Below the pieces are notes generated by a model. The model made no database searches. It saw only the letters and a program-made list of their open reading frames with translations, and was not told the origin of the DNA. From NCBI GenBank assembly GCA_035536915.1, contig DATLNE010000047.1, forward strand, positions 1-64,000: a DNA stretch of 64,000 nucleotides, given 5' to 3'. Position 1 is the stretch's first letter; each line of letters begins with the position of its first letter. Made by a program: the position numbers and the translations under genes. This stretch comes from Acidimicrobiales bacterium. GTDB taxonomy: Bacteria > Actinomycetota > Acidimicrobiia > Acidimicrobiales > JAHWLA01. Shown in pieces: positions 3,001 through 31,818 of this stretch.

Positions 3001-6000
3001 ACGCCGGCTCCGACGGCGACGTGAACACCGGGGCAGGCGCATTCACCACCACCCATGACGATCTGAAAGTCGCCGGCGCCGGCCCCGACCTGGACCTGAC
3101 ACGCTCGTACGGCAGCAGGGATACCCGTACCGGGCCGTTCGGTGTCGGGTGGCATCACACGTTCGGCGGTAGTTGGCGAAAGGTCGGCGACACGGCGATC
3201 TCCGTCACCTACGGGAACGGACGCACCGAGGTCCACAGCCGCCGAGCGGACGGCACGTACGCCACGGCGAACGGGTACCACTCGACATTGACGGCCGTCG
3301 GCCAAGGGTTCGTCCTCGAGACCCGGGACCGGGCCCGGTACCACTACGCGGGCGACGGCAAGCTCACTGCGATCACCGACCCGAACAACAGGCAGTTGAC
3401 GCTCACCTACAACGGGTCCGGCCGGCTCGTGACAGTCGCCGCAGCCGGCGGGCGAGCGCTGACGTTCGCATGGGAGGGCTCGCACATTGTGTCTGCCTCG
3501 ACCAATGCCGTCAGCGCCCATGGGGGACCGCTCACGTGGCGGTACTACTACGCCGGTGACAACCTCGTGAAAGCGTGCGATCCGCGGGACAACGCCGCCA
3601 CCGGTTCGTGCATCGTCTACACGTACACCGGCGGCAAGATCACCAAGGTGGCTCGGCCGAAGGGCAACGTCGAGGCCGAGGCCGGCTATCGAGCCGACGG
3701 CCGCATCGACTGGCGACAGGACGGCGTGGGTGACCGGACGCGCTACGAGTATCCGTCGCCGCAGGTCACCCGGGTCGTCGACGCTCGCACCAACGTCACC
3801 GTCCAGGAGTTCGACGTCTTCTACCGGCTGGTCAAGGAGACCGACCCAGCAGGCAAGGTCACCACGTACAGCTACGACGGCGGAGGCAACCAGTCGCACG
3901 TCGTGAAGCCGAACGGCGCAACGACGGTCATGGGCTACGACAGCGCCGGCAACCCGACGTCGGTCAGCGACGGCCTCGGGAACACGACATACAGCAGCTA
4001 CGACGCGGCCGGGAACCTGCTCGCCCGTCGTGACGCGCGGTCGACCAGCAGCGGCGACGACCGGTACAAGACCGCCTACACCTACGACAGCGCCGGCAAC
4101 CGCTTGACGGAAACCGGGCCTCCGACCGCCGACTTCCCGGCGGGCGTCGGCCGCCGGTGGACGTACACCACCGCGGGCGAACCCGCGGTGGGCGGGGGCA
4201 CGACCCCGGCCGGCCTCCTTCGCACGGAGACCGACGCACGCGGCAAGACGACGTCCTACCGCTACAACTCGGTCGGAGACGTCGTCGAAAAAGTCCAGCC
4301 TGAAGGACTTCGGACGACGTGGTCCTACGACGAGCTCGGTCGACGGACGGCCGAGACGGTGTTCAGCGACGCCGTCCCCTCGGGAGCGGCCACGACGTTC
4401 GCCTACGACCGGATGGGCAGCCTGGTCGAGCGGCTGGAGCCCTCGACCACGAACCCGGTGATTGGGACAGCGGCGCAGCGTCGCACCCGGGTGGAGTACG
4501 ACGCCAACGGCAACCAGGTGAAGGTGACGGTCGACGACACCCAGCAACCCGGATCGGAACGGGTCACTACCCATGCCTACGACAACGCCGATCGCGAGCT
4601 GTCGGCCACCGATGCTCAGGGCGGCACCGTTTCCCGCACCTACGACCCGGCCGGGAACGTCGCCACCGTCACCGACCAGGAAGGCAGGGTCGTCCAGGCG
4701 ACGTACGACAACCGCAACCTGCGGACGGCGATGGTCCTCAAGAACTTCGTCGACGACCCGGACGTCCCCACTGCGCCCCGCGACGTCACGCTGGCCACGT
4801 TCGCCTACGACGAGAACAAGCGTCGGGTCGACGAGACGGACGCGCTCGGTCGTACGACTCGAACCCAGTTCGACAAGGCCGACCGGGTCCTCTCGCGCAC
4901 GCTCCTCGACTTCGACGACAGGACGGGAGGCACGAGCAACATCACGCTGGAGACGTACGGCTACGACGGGATTGGAGGCGTTGTCAACGAGACCCGGCCC
5001 GGTCGGTCGACGACACACACGTACGACCAGGCAGGGCGCAGGACGCTGACCGTGGTGGACCCGGCTGGTGTGAACCGACGGACCACGTTCAACTACGACG
5101 AGGCAGGAAACCTGGTCCGGGCGGTGTTGTCGGAAGGTTCTCGGGTGGAGGAGCGCCGCTTCTCCTACGACAACGAGAACCACCGCACGTCGGAGACGGT
5201 AGAGAACGGTACGACAGACCTTACGACGACGACCGCGTTCGACGAGCGCGGTTTCGAGGTGCGCCGGACAAGCCCGCGAGGCAACCTCGCAGGAGCCGAC
5301 GCAGCGCGGTTCACGACCGAGGTCTCCCGTGACGCCTTCGGGCGGGTGACCCAAACCGTCGCCCCCCTCGCCGAGCTCAGTGAGGACGGGACCTCGACGA
5401 CGACTGGTCGTCCTACGACGGTGCGCGGCTACGACGCCTTCGGCAACGCTACGCACGACAGGGATGCCCGAAACGCGCTCGTTGTCACGTCGTACGACAA
5501 GCTCGATCGGCGAACCACGGTGCAGCACCCGTCGTACACCCGAGCCGACGGCGGCACACTGTCGCCCGCCGAGCACTTCACCTACGACAAGGTGGGCAAC
5601 CTGCTCACCTCCACCGATCGTCGCGGCAGCACGACGACGTACCGCTTCGACAAGCGCAACCGCTCGTACCTGAAGCTGGACCCGCTACTCCCCGGAGAGG
5701 CGGCCCAGGGCACCACGCGCACCGAGTTCGACGCGGTGGGAAACCCCACGAAGGTCACAGACCCTCGCGGTGCCACCGTCGAGCGGACGTTCGACGATCG
5801 CAACCAACTGCGCACGGAAACCGAGGTCGTCCGTCAAGCAGGCGGAGCGACGGCCCGGCACACCACCACGTTCGACTACGACGACCGCGGCAACCCGACG
5901 TACGTGCGCTCGCCGCTCGGCCACGAGCGCCGGAGTGAGTTCTCGCCGCTCGACGAGCTCGTCAAGGCGATCGACGCGCTGGGTAAGGAGACGCACAGCC

Positions 6001-8750
6001 GCTACGTCGCCGGGCGAGTTGTCGAGGTGACGGACCCCCTGGGCCATCGGGTCGTTCGTGACTACGACCTTGCCGGTCGGCCGACCAGCGAGAGCCGGTT
6101 CGCCGCCGGGTCCTCGACGCCGTTGGTGACGGCAGGGACCTCGTACGACGCGGACGGCAACGTGGCCTCCACGTCCAGCGCCGAAGGTCGCACGACGACG
6201 CTGTCGCACGACGGGCTCGGACGTCTGAGCAGCGTGACCGAGACAGGTGCGGCCGGCGTTCCCATGACGACCGCCTACACGTACGACGCCAACGGGAACC
6301 CGACGCGCACGACCAACGGCCGCGGCGCGGTGACCACGGCGCACTACAGCGCCTGGAACCAGATCGAGCACTACACCGAGCCCGCCACGTCGGCCCATCC
6401 CGATGTCGCCGACCGCCGCTACACCACGCTGTACGACAATGGCGGGCTGCCCGTCGAGCAGCGGCAACCGGGCGGCATCTCGATCGCCCGTTCCTACGAC
6501 GTGCTCGGCCTGCTGCGCACGGAGACGGGCACGGGCCCCGGCACTCCTTCGGCCGTGCGCACCTTCGGCTACGACCGAGGGGGCCTGCGGACGACGGCGA
6601 GCCATCCCAACGGGACGATCACCCTGGCATGGGACGACCGCCGGCTGCTCCAGTCGGTGGGTGGGCCTGCCGGTTCGAGCTCGTATGTCTACGACGCCGA
6701 CGAACGCTTGGTGCACCGCGACGACCCCGCCGGCGGCCACGACTTCACCTGGACGTCTCGCAGCGAGCTGTCCACGGCGACCGACCCGCTGACGGGGACC
6801 ACGAGGTCCTACCAGTGGGACGACGCGGGCCGCCTCGCTGCGGTCGCCTACGGGCCCGACGGTGCGCCGCGCCCGCAGCGGACCCTGGCCTGGGACGCCC
6901 TCAACCGGCTCACGGCCGACACGCTCGTCGACGTCGGCGGAGCGCAGCAGGCCCGGCATGCCTATACCTACGACGACGACGGCAACGTGCTCACGCAGTC
7001 GGTGGACTTCGCCGCCGGCGCCGCCAATGCCGAGGAGGGCACGCACCAGTACCGCTACGACGGTGCGGGCCGCCTGGCCGGATGGACGCGGCCCAACGGC
7101 GCCGATGTCGCCTACGGCTACGACGCCGCGGGCAACCGCACCTCGGCGGGAGCCGACACGTTCGCCTACGACGAACGCAACCGGTTGGTGAGCGGGCCCC
7201 AGGGCGCCTACACGTGGACGCCGCGTGGCACCCTCGCCTCGGTCACCAGCGGCACGACCACGACGACACACACGTTCGACGCTCTCAACCGGGCCGTCGC
7301 CGCAGGGTCGACGGCCTACGAATACGACGCGCTCGACCGCATCGCCAGTCGCGACGGCCTGGCCTTCGGCTATGCAGGCCTCGACCTCGACCCGACCCAC
7401 GACGGCTCGCAGACCTACAGCCACGCTCCCTCGGGTGATCTGCTGGCGTGGTCGGACGGCTCGGCCGCCCGGCTCGTGGGGGAGAACCGCCACGGCGACC
7501 TGGCGTACCTGTTCGGCACGACGGGCACCGTCGAGGCCAGTCGGGTCTTCGAGCCCTACGGCAAGGTCGTCGGCGAGGCCGGGACGCTGGAGCCGTCGCG
7601 TGCCTTCCAGTCCGACTGGACCGACCCCGCCAGCGGCGAGGTGTGGATGGGGGCGCGCTGGTACGACCCCGACGACGCCGTGTTCACCGCCCGTGACACC
7701 TACGCCGGCGCGGCGCGCACCCCGGTCTCGCTCAATCGCTACACCTACGCCAACGGCGACCCCATGGAGTACTTCGACCCGGACGGCCGCAAGTCGAAGA
7801 AGAAGCAGCAGGGCGACATCTCCGACGCCGAGGCCGACTATTGGCTGTCCATGTCGCCCGAACAACGCGACGCCGAGGCACGCCTTGCCAACGTGACACT
7901 GCTCAAGGGCGTCGGCCTCCCCAAGCCGCCGCAGTGGGACGGGTGGTCCTCCAACGAGCGCAAGCGGTGGATGGACAGGAACTGGGCCGAGCGTGCCGTC
8001 CCCATCCAGGACTGCTCCTACGCCTGCGAGTTCAAGAAGAACACCGTCAAGACGTTCAAGACGGTGGCCAAGGTGGGGCTGTCCGTAGCGGCGGGGGCCG
8101 CCTGCACCGCGGTCGCGGGCGTGGCCGCCGGGGCGGTGTGCGCGGGCATGGCCTACCGGGCGGCCGACAACGCCATGAACGGCAGGCCGATTATGCAGGG
8201 CGTCTTCAGCGCCAAGGCCATCGTCCGCGACGCCGTGATCGGCATCGGCACGGCAGGGCTCGGCCGCCTGGCGGCACCTGCGTTCGCTCGCCTCGGCGCC
8301 CGCCTCGGCATCGGCAAGGGCGGTACGATCGGCCATGCAGGAGGTTCCCGACTCCGTGCCGGTTCGTCCCCGAAGGGCGGGGCAAGTACGACTCACCGGT
8401 CAACGCCAGCCCCAAACACGGCACGGGGGCCGGACTTCGTGGCAGGCCCGATCGGGAGCGCGCCTCCGGTCCCGATCAGCCAGAGCCGTATGGCGGCGGG
8501 CCTCGACGACGCGGGCTTCCCCCGGCAGCCGACCACCTCGCCCGGGATGGACTACACGCTTCCGGACGGTTCCCACGTGCGCTTGATGGATCCGGCGGGC
8601 ACGGCAGGAAGGCGTGCGTCGTTCACTAACGCCAACGGGCAGCCGATCAACCCGTTCACTGGCAAGCCGGTCCAACCCCCACCCGGGCTGACTCCGGCCG
8701 AGCGGCTCGAGTACGTCCGTGTCCGAACCCACGTGGAGCAGGGTCTGTGA
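3..8750 (+). CDS. Giant propeller + RHS/YD-repeat polymorphic toxin (5' partial)
   Basis: Partial: the frame is open to the left edge and the first visible residues (WAAVAGNT) match the middle of an internal repeat, so the real start lies outside. About 2915 residues are visible. Residues ~1-1000 are propeller-like repeats (VAGNT..GAYADGVEF, FNQPKGIASDG, DENRRLRKL). Near 2992-3190 there is a DUF6531-like entry to the RHS part, then many YD repeats (YDxxGN) and the RHS core ending NRYTYANGDPMEYFDPDG near 7788. The last ~320 residues are the variable part: a linker with a Gly/Ala-rich hydrophobic stretch (near 8080-8180) and a C-terminal domain with DYTLPDGSHVRLMDP and NPFTGKPVQPP. In the family such proteins form a shell around a toxic C-terminus delivered to neighbours. 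I cannot name the activity. A candidate immunity gene follows directly. Confidence 0.9.
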   Translation, partial: WAAVAGNTVTGAYADGVEFDAWFNQPKGIASDGTALFVTDENRRLRKLVPAAPPARTLPTGTTTVELNPAATTTVAGNSTSANTDGTGTGASFHGYMGGVAIHGGNAYVATTGHLRKVELATGATTTVAGSTTTGCSDGATGAASRFALSPGQIATDGVHIYSICYESSVNTYLRRTSIATGATATLPGAGTGLVLASDGFLYTTRNAVVYRVSPQTGAVTTFATAPSGLGLGNLAADDQALYIVAGASSNHDQVLRVSLADGTVDTLLPSSAGITNINEITSAGAFVYVTASNQHRVVRIAKANGAWAAVAGNTSNGAYADGVEFDAWFNQPKGIASDGTALFVMDENRRLRKLVPAAAPTRTLPTGTTTVELNPAATTTVAGNSGSTNTDGTGTAASFHGYMGGVAVHSGNAYVATTGHLRKVELATGATTTVAGSPTTGCNDGATGATSRFALSPGQIATDGVHIYSICYESAVNTYLRRTSIATGATATLPGAGTGLVLASDGFLYTTRNAVVYRVSPQTGAVTTFATVPSAEASSISSLAADDQALYLVAGASSNNDRVLRMSLADGTVNTLLPSSAGITNINHVASAGAFVYVTTSTQHGVVRLSKATGAWGVVAGNTWQGAYADGVEFEAWFNQPKGIASDGSALFVIDENRRLRKLTPAPPVTRTLPISSLVDLNVDTGYVLTYAGNGDSTHVDGNTIDSSFHGYINGITMAGTSLYVAETGYLRHVDLLSGAVTTLAGSTNYGCNDGSASNARFGLSPGQLANDGAYIYSTCQADTWTSYIRRTSRATGATITLSGGGGAGLVLAPDGYLYSSGRTTVQRIDPHTGATTAFATLPTELGSSFGVLAADIDALWVIASGATNGDRVLRISLADGSISTLLVAGAGGWPTMQGITSAGAFLYATTGSEPHGVLRIDKATGGVTHIAGSSPPPDMPSYRYSDGHVDAAKFYSPTGILSDGANLWIADQQNRRLRVLTSDGSIVGGVNYAAPDAYAGSDGDVNTGAGAFTTTHDDLKVAGAGPDLDLTRSYGSRDTRTGPFGVGWHHTFGGSWRKVGDTAISVTYGNGRTEVHSRRADGTYATANGYHSTLTAVGQGFVLETRDRARYHYAGDGKLTAITDPNNRQLTLTYNGSGRLVTVAAAGGRALTFAWEGSHIVSASTNAVSAHGGPLTWRYYYAGDNLVKACDPRDNAATGSCIVYTYTGGKITKVARPKGNVEAEAGYRADGRIDWRQDGVGDRTRYEYPSPQVTRVVDARTNVTVQEFDVFYRLVKETDPAGKVTTYSYDGGGNQSHVVKPNGATTVMGYDSAGNPTSVSDGLGNTTYSSYDAAGNLLARRDARSTSSGDDRYKTAYTYDSAGNRLTETGPPTADFPAGVGRRWTYTTAGEPAVGGGTTPAGLLRTETDARGKTTSYRYNSVGDVVEKVQPEGLRTTWSYDELGRRTAETVFSDAVPSGAATTFAYDRMGSLVERLEPSTTNPVIGTAAQRRTRVEYDANGNQVKVTVDDTQQPGSERVTTHAYDNADRELSATDAQGGTVSRTYDPAGNVATVTDQEGRVVQATYDNRNLRTAMVLKNFVDDPDVPTAPRDVTLATFAYDENKRRVDETDALGRTTRTQFDKADRVLSRTLLDFDDRTGGTSNITLETYGYDGIGGVVNETRPGRSTTHTYDQAGRRTLTVVDPAGVNRRTTFNYDEAGNLVRAVLSEGSRVEERRFSYDNENHRTSETVENGTTDLTTTTAFDERGFEVRRTSPRGNLAGADAARFTTEVSRDAFGRVTQTVAPLAELSEDGTSTTTGRPTTVRGYDAFGNATHDRDARNALVVTSYDKLDRRTTVQHPSYTRADGGTLSPAEHFTYDKVGNLLTSTDRRGSTTTYRFDKRNRSYLKLDPLLPGEAAQGTTRTEFDAVGNPTKVTDPRGATVERTFDDRNQLRTETEVVRQAGGATARHTTTFDYDDRGNPTYVRSPLGHERRSEFSPLDELVKAIDALGKETHSRYVAGRVVEVTDPLGHRVVRDYDLAGRPTSESRFAAGSSTPLVTAGTSYDADGNVASTSSAEGRTTTLSHDGLGRLSSVTETGAAGVPMTTAYTYDANGNPTRTTNGRGAVTTAHYSAWNQIEHYTEPATSAHPDVADRRYTTLYDNGGLPVEQRQPGGISIARSYDVLGLLRTETGTGPGTPSAVRTFGYDRGGLRTTASHPNGTITLAWDDRRLLQSVGGPAGSSSYVYDADERLVHRDDPAGGHDFTWTSRSELSTATDPLTGTTRSYQWDDAGRLAAVAYGPDGAPRPQRTLAWDALNRLTADTLVDVGGAQQARHAYTYDDDGNVLTQSVDFAAGAANAEEGTHQYRYDGAGRLAGWTRPNGADVAYGYDAAGNRTSAGADTFAYDERNRLVSGPQGAYTWTPRGTLASVTSGTTTTTHTFDALNRAVAAGSTAYEYDALDRIASRDGLAFGYAGLDLDPTHDGSQTYSHAPSGDLLAWSDGSAARLVGENRHGDLAYLFGTTGTVEASRVFEPYGKVVGEAGTLEPSRAFQSDWTDPASGEVWMGARWYDPDDAVFTARDTYAGAARTPVSLNRYTYANGDPMEYFDPDGRKSKKKQQGDISDAEADYWLSMSPEQRDAEARLANVTLLKGVGLPKPPQWDGWSSNERKRWMDRNWAERAVPIQDCSYACEFKKNTVKTFKTVAKVGLSVAAGAACTAVAGVAAGAVCAGMAYRAADNAMNGRPIMQGVFSAKAIVRDAVIGIGTAGLGRLAAPAFARLGARLGIGKGGTIGHAGGSRLRAGSSPKGGASTTHRSTPAPNTARGPDFVAGPIGSAPPVPISQSRMAAGLDDAGFPRQPTTSPGMDYTLPDGSHVRLMDPAGTAGRRASFTNANGQPINPFTGKPVQPPPGLTPAERLEYVRVRTHVEQGL
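12..2790 (+). repeat. Three near-identical ~921/927-bp coding repeats
   Basis: Inside the RHS protein, the segment beginning around GAYADGVEFDAWFNQPKG recurs at nucleotides 36, 957 and 1884, giving periods of 921 and 927 bases (307 and 309 residues). The first two copies are nearly identical over long stretches of DNA; the third is more diverged, and a weak fourth start is seen around 2780-2960 (YSDGHVDAAKF, QQNRRLRVL). The high DNA identity indicates recent duplication or ongoing homogenisation. Each unit is likely one propeller or a large part of one. Confidence 0.85.
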
Positions 8751-28642: not shown

Positions 28643-29095
28643 TCAGCTCCCGCCAGGGGCCGCTCGCACGGTTCCTGCCGAGAGTTCCTCTGCCACCAAT
28701 GCCCGCAGCCGAAGGTATTCGGCTGCCTCCGTCGTCGATATGTGGAGGGTGAGGATGCCTTCGAAGGTGGCGTCCATCATCGTTATGTCTCCCGCCAGGA
28801 ACCGGCCGACGTCGCCAGGAGGGCCGTGGATCTCCATGTGCGGGTTGAACTCCGGTCCCGAGCGGGTCATGACGTGGCCCTCTCGGGTGAAGGTGATGCG
28901 GTACGACAACGGCGGGTTGCCCAGGTCGATCGCCACGCGAAGCGAGCGGCCACCCAGGGCATCGGCAATGGCGTCGCGTCGGAGGCGCAGGCGGTCGAGG
29001 CAGGCACGGACGACGGCATCCGGCGACGAACAGTCCCGGAATTGGTTCGTCTCGCCTGCATCGTCCATCCGCTCTCCCACACGCATAGGTTTCAT
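28643..29095 (-). CDS. SCP2/sterol-carrier-like small protein
   Basis: 150 residues. The middle has the SCP2-like pattern of a hydrophobic-ligand carrier: LRVAIDLGNPPLSYRITFTR, then NPHMEIHGPPGDVGRFLAGD and MMDATFEGILTL. ATG codons at residues 1, 4 and 10 are all possible starts; the longest is given. Ligand unknown. It is divergent from the small secreted gene, with 183 bases between starts. Confidence 0.6.
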   Translation of the reverse strand: MKPMRVGERMDDAGETNQFRDCSSPDAVVRACLDRLRLRRDAIADALGGRSLRVAIDLGNPPLSYRITFTREGHVMTRSGPEFNPHMEIHGPPGDVGRFLAGDITMMDATFEGILTLHISTTEAAEYLRLRALVAEELSAGTVRAAPGGS

Positions 29096-29134
29096 CTAGT
29101 ACTTCGCAAATCGTCCGAAAAAGTGTCGGTCACC

Positions 29135-29166
29135 CACGAAATAATCCTGTGACCAGGACTTTCGTG
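29135..29166 (+). promoter_or_regulatory. Hairpin in the divergent promoter region of the small secreted gene
   Basis: CACGAAA + TCCTG pairs with CAGGA + TTTCGTG around a TGAC loop, with small bulges. It lies 113 bases upstream of the GTG at 29279 and 40 bases from the divergent SCP2-like start. It may be an operator or a leader-RNA structure. Confidence 0.4.
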
Positions 29167-29278
29167 CGTGAGCGTCGAAGTTTTGAGGAGTCGGGTCGCC
29201 TGGCGAGCCTCGACGCGAACCCCCTGAAACCAGCGCAGTGCTCCCCTGGAGCCTGCGCGTACAGAGAGGAACCCCCTC

Positions 29279-29578
29279 GTGTCTCGCAGCCCTCTTCGAC
29301 GGTCGCGGCTTCTTGTCGTCGCCGCGCTGTCCCTGACCGGCGCTCTGCTCGCAGTTGCCGCGCCGCCCGCACAAGCGGACTGCGCTCGGGCGTCGGTGTG
29401 GATCTACAAGTCGAGGCAGGGCCGTGAGTACAAGTACGGCCCCTACCAGTGCGTGGGTCCGAACAACGGGCATCCGAACACCGGCTATGCAGGCTGGGGG
29501 ACGGGCGACAACACATACCCATATGGGGTGCCGTCCGGAGGCGGCGCCGAAGTTTGGGTGCCCTTGCCGCTGCCCTAG
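29279..29578 (+). CDS. Small secreted two-cysteine protein
   Basis: 99 residues from GTG 29279, preceded by GAGAGGAA. Signal peptide LLVVAALSLTGALLAVAAPPAQA, then a mature part of ~65 residues with Cys35 and Cys58, rich in Gly, Tyr and Asn (YKYGPYQCVGPNNGHPNTGY). No family recognised; the layout is like small actinobacterial secreted peptides stabilised by one disulfide. It converges with the ECF sigma gene so tightly that both stop codons share the bases CTAG. Confidence 0.7.
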   Translation: MSRSPLRRSRLLVVAALSLTGALLAVAAPPAQADCARASVWIYKSRQGREYKYGPYQCVGPNNGHPNTGYAGWGTGDNTYPYGVPSGGGAEVWVPLPLP

Positions 29579-30639
29579 TCGATGGGCGGCGGCGTCCCAA
29601 TCTCGTCGACGGCAGCGCAGCCGGTCGTCCGGACTGCGCTGCCGTTGCACTCGATTGTGACGATTCCCCAGGTCCAACGGTCCGTGCCTGGGGTTGTGAC
29701 CTGCGAGTCGAACTGCGCGCCAGCCTGATTGCCTGTACGGCCGATGCTTGCCGATGTCGTGACACCGGTCCGGTCTGGCTGCGGGTCCGTTGACGTGACT
29801 CCATCGCTTCCCGCTGTGGCCGTAACGGGAGCCACGGGGCGCGGTTCGTCGGTGAGGTTCGTCTGGGAACTCGGTTGCGCAGTGCTCGTTTGCACGCGCT
29901 CCGTCGCGCTCGTGGGGGCCGTGCGCACCGCGGGGACAGCGGCGATGGCAACGACAGCCACGGTGGTCGCCGCCGCGCCAACGCCTGCCATGTGGCCGCC
30001 GACAAACGCCTGGTAGCGCTGCAGCCGCTTCCGCATGCGGTTGAGCAGGCCGAGAACCATGAAGCCGCCGAACAGCCCTGATTCCCGCTCGAAGCCCATG
30101 TAGCTTGTCTTGAAGTTCGTGCGGGCACGAGCGAGCGCCGACTTCACGGCGTCGGGCGTCATCTGCTCGGCATTGGCCACGCCCTCGTAGCTCATGCCCT
30201 CGATCGTCACCAGTTGGAGCAACCGCCGCTGGCGCGTGTTGAGGCTGGCGAAGGCGTGCTTGATGCCGACCCGTCGGGCTCGGTTGAGCAGTTCTTCCTC
30301 CACCGAGTCGAGCGACGCCACGTCGATGTCGTCGACGGTCTCGTCGGCCGTCTCCAAGGTGCGGAACTGCAGGCGCTGCAGGTCGGCTGCGGTGCGCAGC
30401 GCGATCGTGATCAGCCACGGCTCGATGGGCCGACTCGGATCGATCGAGGCCCGGTTCTTGAACGCCCGCAGGAAGGTCTCCTGCAGGACGTCGTCGGCCA
30501 GTGCGGTACCGACCCTGCGCTCGACGACGCGGCGCAGCTTCGGCGCGTGCATGTCGTAAAGAAGCTCCCAGTCGAGTTCGGGCGCCACCTCGCCCGCTAC
30601 GACGTGCACTGCATTCCCCGACGGTGCGAACTTGGCCAT
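29575..30639 (-). CDS. ECF sigma factor with membrane segment and exported tail (1)
   Basis: 354 residues from ATG 30639, preceded by GGAGG at 7-base spacing. Region 2 is at residues ~25-90 (LYDMHAPKLRRVVERRVG, DDVLQETFLRAFKN), region 4 at ~128-178 (ASLNTRQRRLLQLVTIEG, AVKSALARARTNF). Unlike ordinary ECF factors it continues through a membrane segment (~216-238) into a Thr/Pro-rich tail ending with Cys331 and Cys341 (C-X9-C). So the factor may be membrane-tethered and sense an external signal itself, without a separate anti-sigma protein; that is inference. A paralogue lies just upstream. Confidence 0.88.
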   Translation of the reverse strand: MAKFAPSGNAVHVVAGEVAPELDWELLYDMHAPKLRRVVERRVGTALADDVLQETFLRAFKNRASIDPSRPIEPWLITIALRTAADLQRLQFRTLETADETVDDIDVASLDSVEEELLNRARRVGIKHAFASLNTRQRRLLQLVTIEGMSYEGVANAEQMTPDAVKSALARARTNFKTSYMGFERESGLFGGFMVLGLLNRMRKRLQRYQAFVGGHMAGVGAAATTVAVVAIAAVPAVRTAPTSATERVQTSTAQPSSQTNLTDEPRPVAPVTATAGSDGVTSTDPQPDRTGVTTSASIGRTGNQAGAQFDSQVTTPGTDRWTWGIVTIECNGSAVRTTGCAAVDEIGTPPPID

Positions 30640-30771
30640 GCGGCCACCTCCCCGAGCCCCCGCCACCGTATGGCTCGTCACCCGGTTGGTTCAAGCCGGA
30701 ATCGCCGTATTCCTCCTATCTGTCGGTTCGTAGGCGACGATCCGTCTCACTCTGATGGCTATGCATGGCGG

Positions 30772-31818
30772 TCAGGGGGCGAGCCCTCCTGGCGCTCTGA
30801 CGCTCTCCGGCGGACGTGCCGCAAAGCAGGCCGTCCGACTGACCGTGCCGCTTTGGCAATGCACTGTGGACTCGCTTGTATCCCGAGTGTCGTGGGTGCC
30901 GCCTGCTGTCCGCAGCTTCGTCGACACCGAGAACTCCTCGTCGTCGTTGACGGTCGTGACGTCTGCCTCGGTCGTGTACCCCGCTGTTGTAACCGGGCGA
31001 AATGCCTCGGGGGAGGCCGCGCCGTCGACTGCGGGGCCGTCACCTGGCCGTGCGGCCGACCCGCGGTTCGACGCCTGGGGCACCAACGCCTTTGCCTGAT
31101 TCCCTTCGGCCGGCGATGACGACCGAGCGACTGCCGGCAGCGCAGCCTCGGGTGACGCGACTGGCGGGCGTGCGAACGAGGCAGCCCCGCCGCCGCTCAT
31201 CAGGACCGACAGGCCGAGCGCCCCAGCACATGCGGCGGGCACCAGACCGACCTGGTCTGCCAGTGCCTGCAGGCGGGCGAGCCCCGCTCGCAATCGGCCG
31301 GTCAACGAATAAGCGAGCCCGCCCGTTCCGAAAACCCCGGTCTCACGGGAGACGGCCAGATAGCGGGTGCGAAACGCTCGCCGCCCGCGGGCGAGGGCGG
31401 ACTTCGTCGCAACCGACGAAGAGACCGCGCCCGGTTCCATAAAGGCGGCGATCAGGGCTTGGCGCTGCCGCACGGTCAACTCGCCGAGGACGTCGGAGAT
31501 CGCCTCACGGCGGATGCCGTTGATGACGGCGTCCTCGACGCCCTCGTGGCGCGCGTCGAGGTCGACGACCTTGTGCAGCAGGCGCGTGCGGGCGTCCTCG
31601 TTGCGGACCGCGTCGATCGCTGCGCGGCGGGCGACGGTGGTCAACAACGACCGCAGCGGCCTTCCGGGCTCGATCGTGTCGCGACGGCGGTAGACGCGGA
31701 AAAACGTCTCTTGGACGACATCGTCGGCAACCGCCTCACCGGCGAGCCGCCGCGCGAGCCGGCGAAGCCGCGGGGCCTCGGCAATGAAGACAGCTGTCCA
31801 ATCAGGTTCTTCGGCCAT
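30772..31818 (-). CDS. ECF sigma factor with membrane segment and exported tail (2)
   Basis: 348 residues from ATG 31818 (upstream GGAGGGGAG). Region 2 is at residues ~12-75 (DDVVQETFFRVYRRRD), region 4 at ~108-155 (GELTVRQRQALIAAF). It is paralogous to the next gene on the strand: both share E-[ST]-G-[LV]-F-G after region 4, an RLxAGLxRLQA-like helix, a hydrophobic segment (~188-214) and an exported tail with C-X9-C (Cys321, Cys331). 132 bases separate the two genes. No anti-sigma gene is seen nearby. Confidence 0.87.
   Translation of the reverse strand: MAEEPDWTAVFIAEAPRLRRLARRLAGEAVADDVVQETFFRVYRRRDTIEPGRPLRSLLTTVARRAAIDAVRNEDARTRLLHKVVDLDARHEGVEDAVINGIRREAISDVLGELTVRQRQALIAAFMEPGAVSSSVATKSALARGRRAFRTRYLAVSRETGVFGTGGLAYSLTGRLRAGLARLQALADQVGLVPAACAGALGLSVLMSGGGAASFARPPVASPEAALPAVARSSSPAEGNQAKALVPQASNRGSAARPGDGPAVDGAASPEAFRPVTTAGYTTEADVTTVNDDEEFSVSTKLRTAGGTHDTRDTSESTVHCQSGTVSRTACFAARPPESVRAPGGLAP

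Follow-up and report, generated by a model that had tools for sequence, protein, structure and literature searches.

The usual ECF sigma factor is held by a membrane-bound anti-sigma factor that is a distinct protein. In the actinobacterial groups ECF48, ECF52 (SCO4117 of Streptomyces coelicolor) and ECF53, the sigma factor itself carries a C-terminal membrane helix and an exported region, there is no separate anti-sigma factor, and release is thought to occur by proteolysis (PMC8999054, PMC5826349). Proteolytic release of a membrane-fused ECF sigma factor has been shown for IutY and proposed for ECF52 (PMC8999054, PMC5826349). IutY (ECF243) of Pseudomonas putida combines the sigma factor and a membrane regulator in one polypeptide, and its extension is a fused anti-sigma factor of iron-uptake cell-surface signalling (PMC8999054).

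The window, a stretch of 64,000 nucleotides from an Acidimicrobiales bacterium (contig DATLNE010000047.1), encodes two ECF sigma factors of this general build, here called sigma A and sigma B. ECF48, ECF52 and ECF53 have a cytoplasmic zinc-finger anti-sigma domain, whereas sigma A and sigma B have none between the sigma domain and the helix (PMC8999054, PMC5826349). Sigma A, like IutY, is sigma factor and membrane protein in one, but it has a short tail and a small exported partner instead of a fused anti-sigma factor (PMC8999054). The architecture is of a known kind, close to ECF48/52/53 and IutY, and the elements that appear new are the absence of the anti-sigma domain and the coupling to exported mini-proteins. 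No description of a coupled exported cysteine mini-protein was found in the searchable literature including PMC8999054 and PMC5826349, a scope outside which the main ECF reclassification paper falls.

Two membrane-anchored sigma factors in tandem

The features of the sigma pair are as follows.

29578..30639, minus strand: sigma A, an ECF sigma factor of 354 aa from ATG (Pfam, hydropathy, alignment of six homologues)
29926..30000, minus strand: membrane helix predicted at about residues 214-238 of sigma A (highest Kyte-Doolittle mean over 19 residues 2.14, basic stretch towards the sigma domain)
29617..29649, minus strand: tail cysteine pair of sigma A, C331-X9-C341 (invariant in six homologues)
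30775..31818, minus strand: sigma B, 348 aa, with region 2, membrane helix and tail and no recognisable region 4 (Pfam, alignment, tree)
31195..31251, minus strand: predicted membrane helix of sigma B, residues 190-208 (Kyte-Doolittle mean 1.84)
30826..30858, minus strand: tail cysteine pair of sigma B, C321-X9-C331 (invariant in six homologues)

An alternative GTG start of sigma A at 30681 would give 368 aa. Sigma A matched Sigma70_r2 (E 4.7e-12) and region 4 (PF08281, E 4.4e-8) in Pfam. Sigma B matched Sigma70_r2 above the Pfam cut-off as sigma A did (E 1.3e-13), and its region 4 gave no Pfam match even at E<=1. The alignment shows an in-frame loss of 8 residues in the helix-turn-helix of sigma B, by which most of one helix is gone. 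The sequence-only reading had assigned regions 2 and 4 to both proteins; this holds for both regions of sigma A and for region 2 of sigma B, and fails for region 4 of sigma B. The segment E-[ST]-G-[LV]-F-G that it reported in both is present as ESGLFG and ETGVFG.

In the sigma-core tree, sigma A and sigma B are sisters (98/93), with a branch length of 1.18 for sigma B and 0.51 for sigma A. Due to the loss of region 4 and the sister placement on a far longer branch, sigma B is, on sequence grounds, a diverged tandem copy of sigma A without a full region 4. The two should not be taken as two equal receptors. Sigma B is perhaps a modulator or a decaying copy.

Each sigma factor has one strongly hydrophobic segment, C-terminal to the sigma domain and preceded by an Arg/Lys-rich stretch. 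The tail after the helix comprises 116 or 140 residues in the pair, and is predicted to lie outside because the Arg/Lys-rich stretch is on the sigma side (positive-inside rule). Helices and signal peptides here and below were called by hydropathy and simple rules, not by a dedicated topology predictor. The membrane helix and outer tail proposed earlier for both proteins agree with the hydropathy values and the basic flank, and the sigma factors are very probably their own membrane-spanning receptors. Neither sigma A nor sigma B matched a zinc-finger or anti-sigma domain in Pfam or NCBIfam, and a scan of the nearest genes around them revealed no anti-sigma domain, as had been claimed. A zinc-finger anti-sigma fusion was considered as a reading and was ruled out by the domain scan of the two proteins.

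The tail cysteines are exactly at the positions reported from the sequence, nine residues apart. Beyond the pair, sigma A has no cysteine and sigma B has one, at residue 197. In the alignment of six sigma tails, both cysteines are invariant with a spacing of X8 or X9. The identity among the six homologues is ~0.4 in the sigma core and on average only 0.20 in the linker from helix to tail. Given these low identities, the tail cysteines appear to be conserved more than expected by chance.

The small exported protein and its relatives in the genus

A small gene converges on sigma A.

29279..29578, plus strand: small exported two-cysteine protein, 99 aa (translation; homologues in the same position at four more loci)
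29575..29578, no strand: CTAG in which the stop codon of sigma A overlaps that of the small gene (sequence)

The product starts with a signal-peptide-like sequence ending AQA|DC and contains the cysteines Cys35 and Cys58. It belongs to no Pfam family, and its AlphaFold2 model is poor (pLDDT 52) and too weak for use. A class-wide search for the small protein (395 genomes) matched only the genome of the window.

Searches with sigma A and the small protein covered the genome of the window (G000) and one genome of the same genus (G001). Four further modules were found, on contigs C31 (L032) and C10 (L033) of G000 and C89 (L036) and C201 (L037) of G001. In total there are five modules, three in the genome of the window and two in the other, each composed of a sigma gene and a convergent gene for an exported relative. 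The exported proteins of the four further modules are about 92-99 aa long and have two cysteines, and their stop codons and those of the sigma genes are no more than about 25 bases apart. The five small proteins have both cysteines without exception, and several prolines near the C-terminus are likewise invariant. The tiny secreted protein and the CTAG overlap of the sequence-only reading are both seen in the sequence, and the survey of homologues that it proposed came out in its favour for the cysteine pair (invariant in all six sigma factors) and for the secreted neighbour. Because of the five modules, the invariant cysteines and the convergent overlap or near-overlap, comparison of the sequences indicates that the partnership of the small exported protein with sigma is real and inherited.

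A seventh sigma factor of the genus, at L016 (G001, contig C78; 558-893 and 841-2256), has a C-X8-C end and a convergent exported cysteine-rich ORF overlapping the 3' end of the sigma gene by ~50 bases. By eye, this exported protein is unlike the other partner families.

An order-wide search with a tail profile (298 genomes) detected only the two genomes of the genus; three weaker matches were inspected and are unrelated genes. The C-X8/9-C tail was found only in this genus, and elsewhere a comparable pair is usually on a separate mini-protein.

PucR-type (HTH_30) regulators adjoin two of the modules (L032:2703-4052 and L036:1593-2909), and a PucR-like protein without Pfam match adjoins a third (L033:6103-7257). 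No PucR-type regulator was seen beside the module of the window.

Partner genes across the order

Membrane-anchored ECF sigma factors are common in the order. Sigma A has matches at E<=1e-15 in 23 of 248 genomes of the order, with a membrane helix and a long tail in most loci inspected. Most anchored sigma factors of the order have no tail cysteines at all. Eleven anchored sigma genes are followed by a gene for an exported mini-protein of 46-81 aa with C-X8-11-C, with an ATGA/GTGA start-stop overlap in all eleven. They are ten loci of the order (L080, L081, L085, L086, L090, L091, L093, L094, L097 and L098) and L057:1679-1885, which is on contig C31 of the window's own genome. All eleven mini-proteins are unannotated, and they are arguably the wider finding.

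In a second group, the sigma tail has BNR (Asp-box) repeats detected by Pfam, a pattern typical of beta-propellers, and ends with C-X11-C in most members. The nine loci (L034, L035, L038, L039 and L216-L220) encode a membrane helix and a large exported domain. Six of the nine, from three families of the order, adjoin a gene for an exported protein with four cysteines and about 160-210 aa, truncated by the contig end in one case. Pfam gave no convincing match for any of the three partner families. Comparison with hhalign gave no support for homology among them, or between the tail and the mini-protein. Because profile comparison gives no link, the partner families are treated as analogous. Two anchored sigma factors from other families of the order (L089 and L100) have long Gly/Ser/Thr-rich tails ending ~C-X16-C and no detected partner.

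Partners were also counted with a fixed rule: the protein had to begin like a signal peptide, carry two or more cysteines beyond that start and lack a second membrane segment, and its gene had to show third-position GC bias and lie no more than 60 bases from the sigma stop. A partner so defined is present at 20 of 40 membrane-anchored sigma genes and at 1 of the 83 others (Fisher p about 5e-11, which overstates the difference, since loci share ancestry, similarity to sigma A was the reason for including many of them, and some helped to shape the rule). All 20 partner-bearing anchored sigma factors are in this order, and none of the anchored sigma factors met outside it has a partner. The half without a detected partner includes at least seven from the order.

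In the tree, the six window-type sigma factors group with the propeller sigma factors L034 and L039 (96/90). Convergent partners belong to members of this group, and to L016 outside it. Co-directional partners belong to the remaining partner-bearing propeller sigma factors and to the coupled mini-protein group. Since partner orientation and type track the sigma tree, sigma and partner appear to have been inherited together, with partner size shifting with tail type.

The sigma factor as its own membrane protein, genetically coupled to a small exported cysteine protein, is seen in many lineages of one order. This recurrent pairing suggests a little-studied route from an outside signal to gene expression. 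Through it, a set of tiny exported proteins without annotation also gains a plausible role.

A candidate gate at the membrane and the third gene of the module

We tentatively favour a membrane-tethered one-component ECF sigma system in which a dedicated exported partner takes the place of the membrane anti-sigma factor in gating, and hold this to be nearly an even call. Beside the computed architecture, conserved cysteine pairs and recurrent gene coupling, we infer the tail-partner contact, the direction of the gate, the proteolysis and the signal. Sigma A would span the membrane, with its sigma domain on the inner side and its small tail, closed by a disulfide, on the outer side. The exported partner would fold outside around its own disulfide and bind or cap the tail. 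The contact between tail and partner, rather than a membrane anti-sigma factor, would decide whether the sigma domain is tethered or released. Regulated intramembrane proteolysis would then free the sigma domain, which would bind RNA polymerase. If the partner gates release, two proteins and one membrane crossing would form a minimal path by which an outside signal reaches RNA polymerase, and the loci would constitute a natural variant set for tests of co-evolution between tail and partner.

Several points count against the gate. The window-type partner has its own promoter and not the stoichiometric coupling of the other forms. No relationship among the partner families could be demonstrated, and half of the anchored sigma factors have no detected partner. 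The broader version is more doubtful: perhaps co-encoded exported disulfide mini-proteins act from outside as the gate for an entire branch of membrane-tethered sigma factors in one actinobacterial order, with no separate anti-sigma factor involved, and changes in the tail went hand in hand with changes in the partner (mini-protein, short hairpin tail, propeller).

The strongest rival, which we consider unlikely, makes the exported protein an output. Its gene, coding perhaps for a component of the cell envelope, would be a target of the sigma factor next to it and would have stayed adjacent on account of that regulation, and the sigma factor would sense by its tail alone. Target genes are common beside ECF genes. 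The arrangement upstream of the small gene also favours an output.

28643..29095, minus strand: SCP2-fold protein of 150 aa, transcribed away from the small gene and in the same direction as sigma (homologues at L032, L037 and, frameshifted, L033)
29096..29278, no strand: divergent promoter region common to the small and SCP2-fold genes (inverted repeat at 29127-29141/29160-29174)

The small gene of the window type has a promoter region of its own, shared with the SCP2-fold gene, and in each of the four other modules a conserved element, GTTSSTTCCGGT, precedes the small gene. Four of the five exact copies of GTTSSTTCCGGT in the two genomes fall in those intergenic regions. It occurs at chance level in the window and is absent from the intergenic region there, where the inverted repeat is found instead. 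The element is only suggestive, because it was chosen from these very sites, the reversed pattern used as a control gave a similar number of matches in G000, and the window lacks it. A scan for sigma-70 promoters and terminators detected nothing, and there was no match to Rfam or to defence-system models. Against an output, the ATGA/GTGA overlap at eleven loci is more in keeping with a partner made together with sigma than with a regulated target, and partner type changes together with tail type.

The third gene, which the earlier account left out, encodes 139-150 aa and is present in four of the five modules. It is intact in the window, L032 and L037 and frameshifted in L033; the contig of L036 ends at that point. 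In L033 the gene is split over two reading frames (about 5622-6043), either because it is broken or because of a misassembly. For the L032 homologue, the model (pLDDT 82) matched many SCP2 structures with a Foldseek probability of 1.00. The fold is that of sterol carrier protein 2, but the three module proteins have no match to the Pfam SCP2 profile. Elsewhere in the order, weakly related proteins are HxlR regulators that contain an SCP2-like domain. No signal peptide was seen in the protein of the window, and it is probably cytoplasmic. It may be a target gene or a lipid-linked accessory.

A redox sensor is a still less probable reading. Here the cysteines of tail and partner would switch among free thiols, internal disulfides and a mixed disulfide, and so control sigma release. 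The two invariant cysteines on each side are consistent with it, as is the near absence of other cysteines in sigma A and in the L032 and L036 sigma factors. However, invariant pairs in small exported domains are usually structural disulfides, which fit equally well, no redox genes are linked to the module, and anchored sigma factors in most of the order lack tail cysteines.

It is very improbable that the tails are unselected extensions, the small gene a chance neighbour, and membrane anchoring alone important: the low-complexity, poorly conserved linkers and the wide variation of tail types across the order would fit this, but the invariant cysteines, the homologous partners at five loci and the fixed-rule count stand against it.

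Third-position GC is 0.77-0.84 in the module genes (window 28646-31818) versus 0.92 in the neighbouring cysteine desulfurase and MnmA genes. The lower values may reflect faster evolution or a different history of the module genes.
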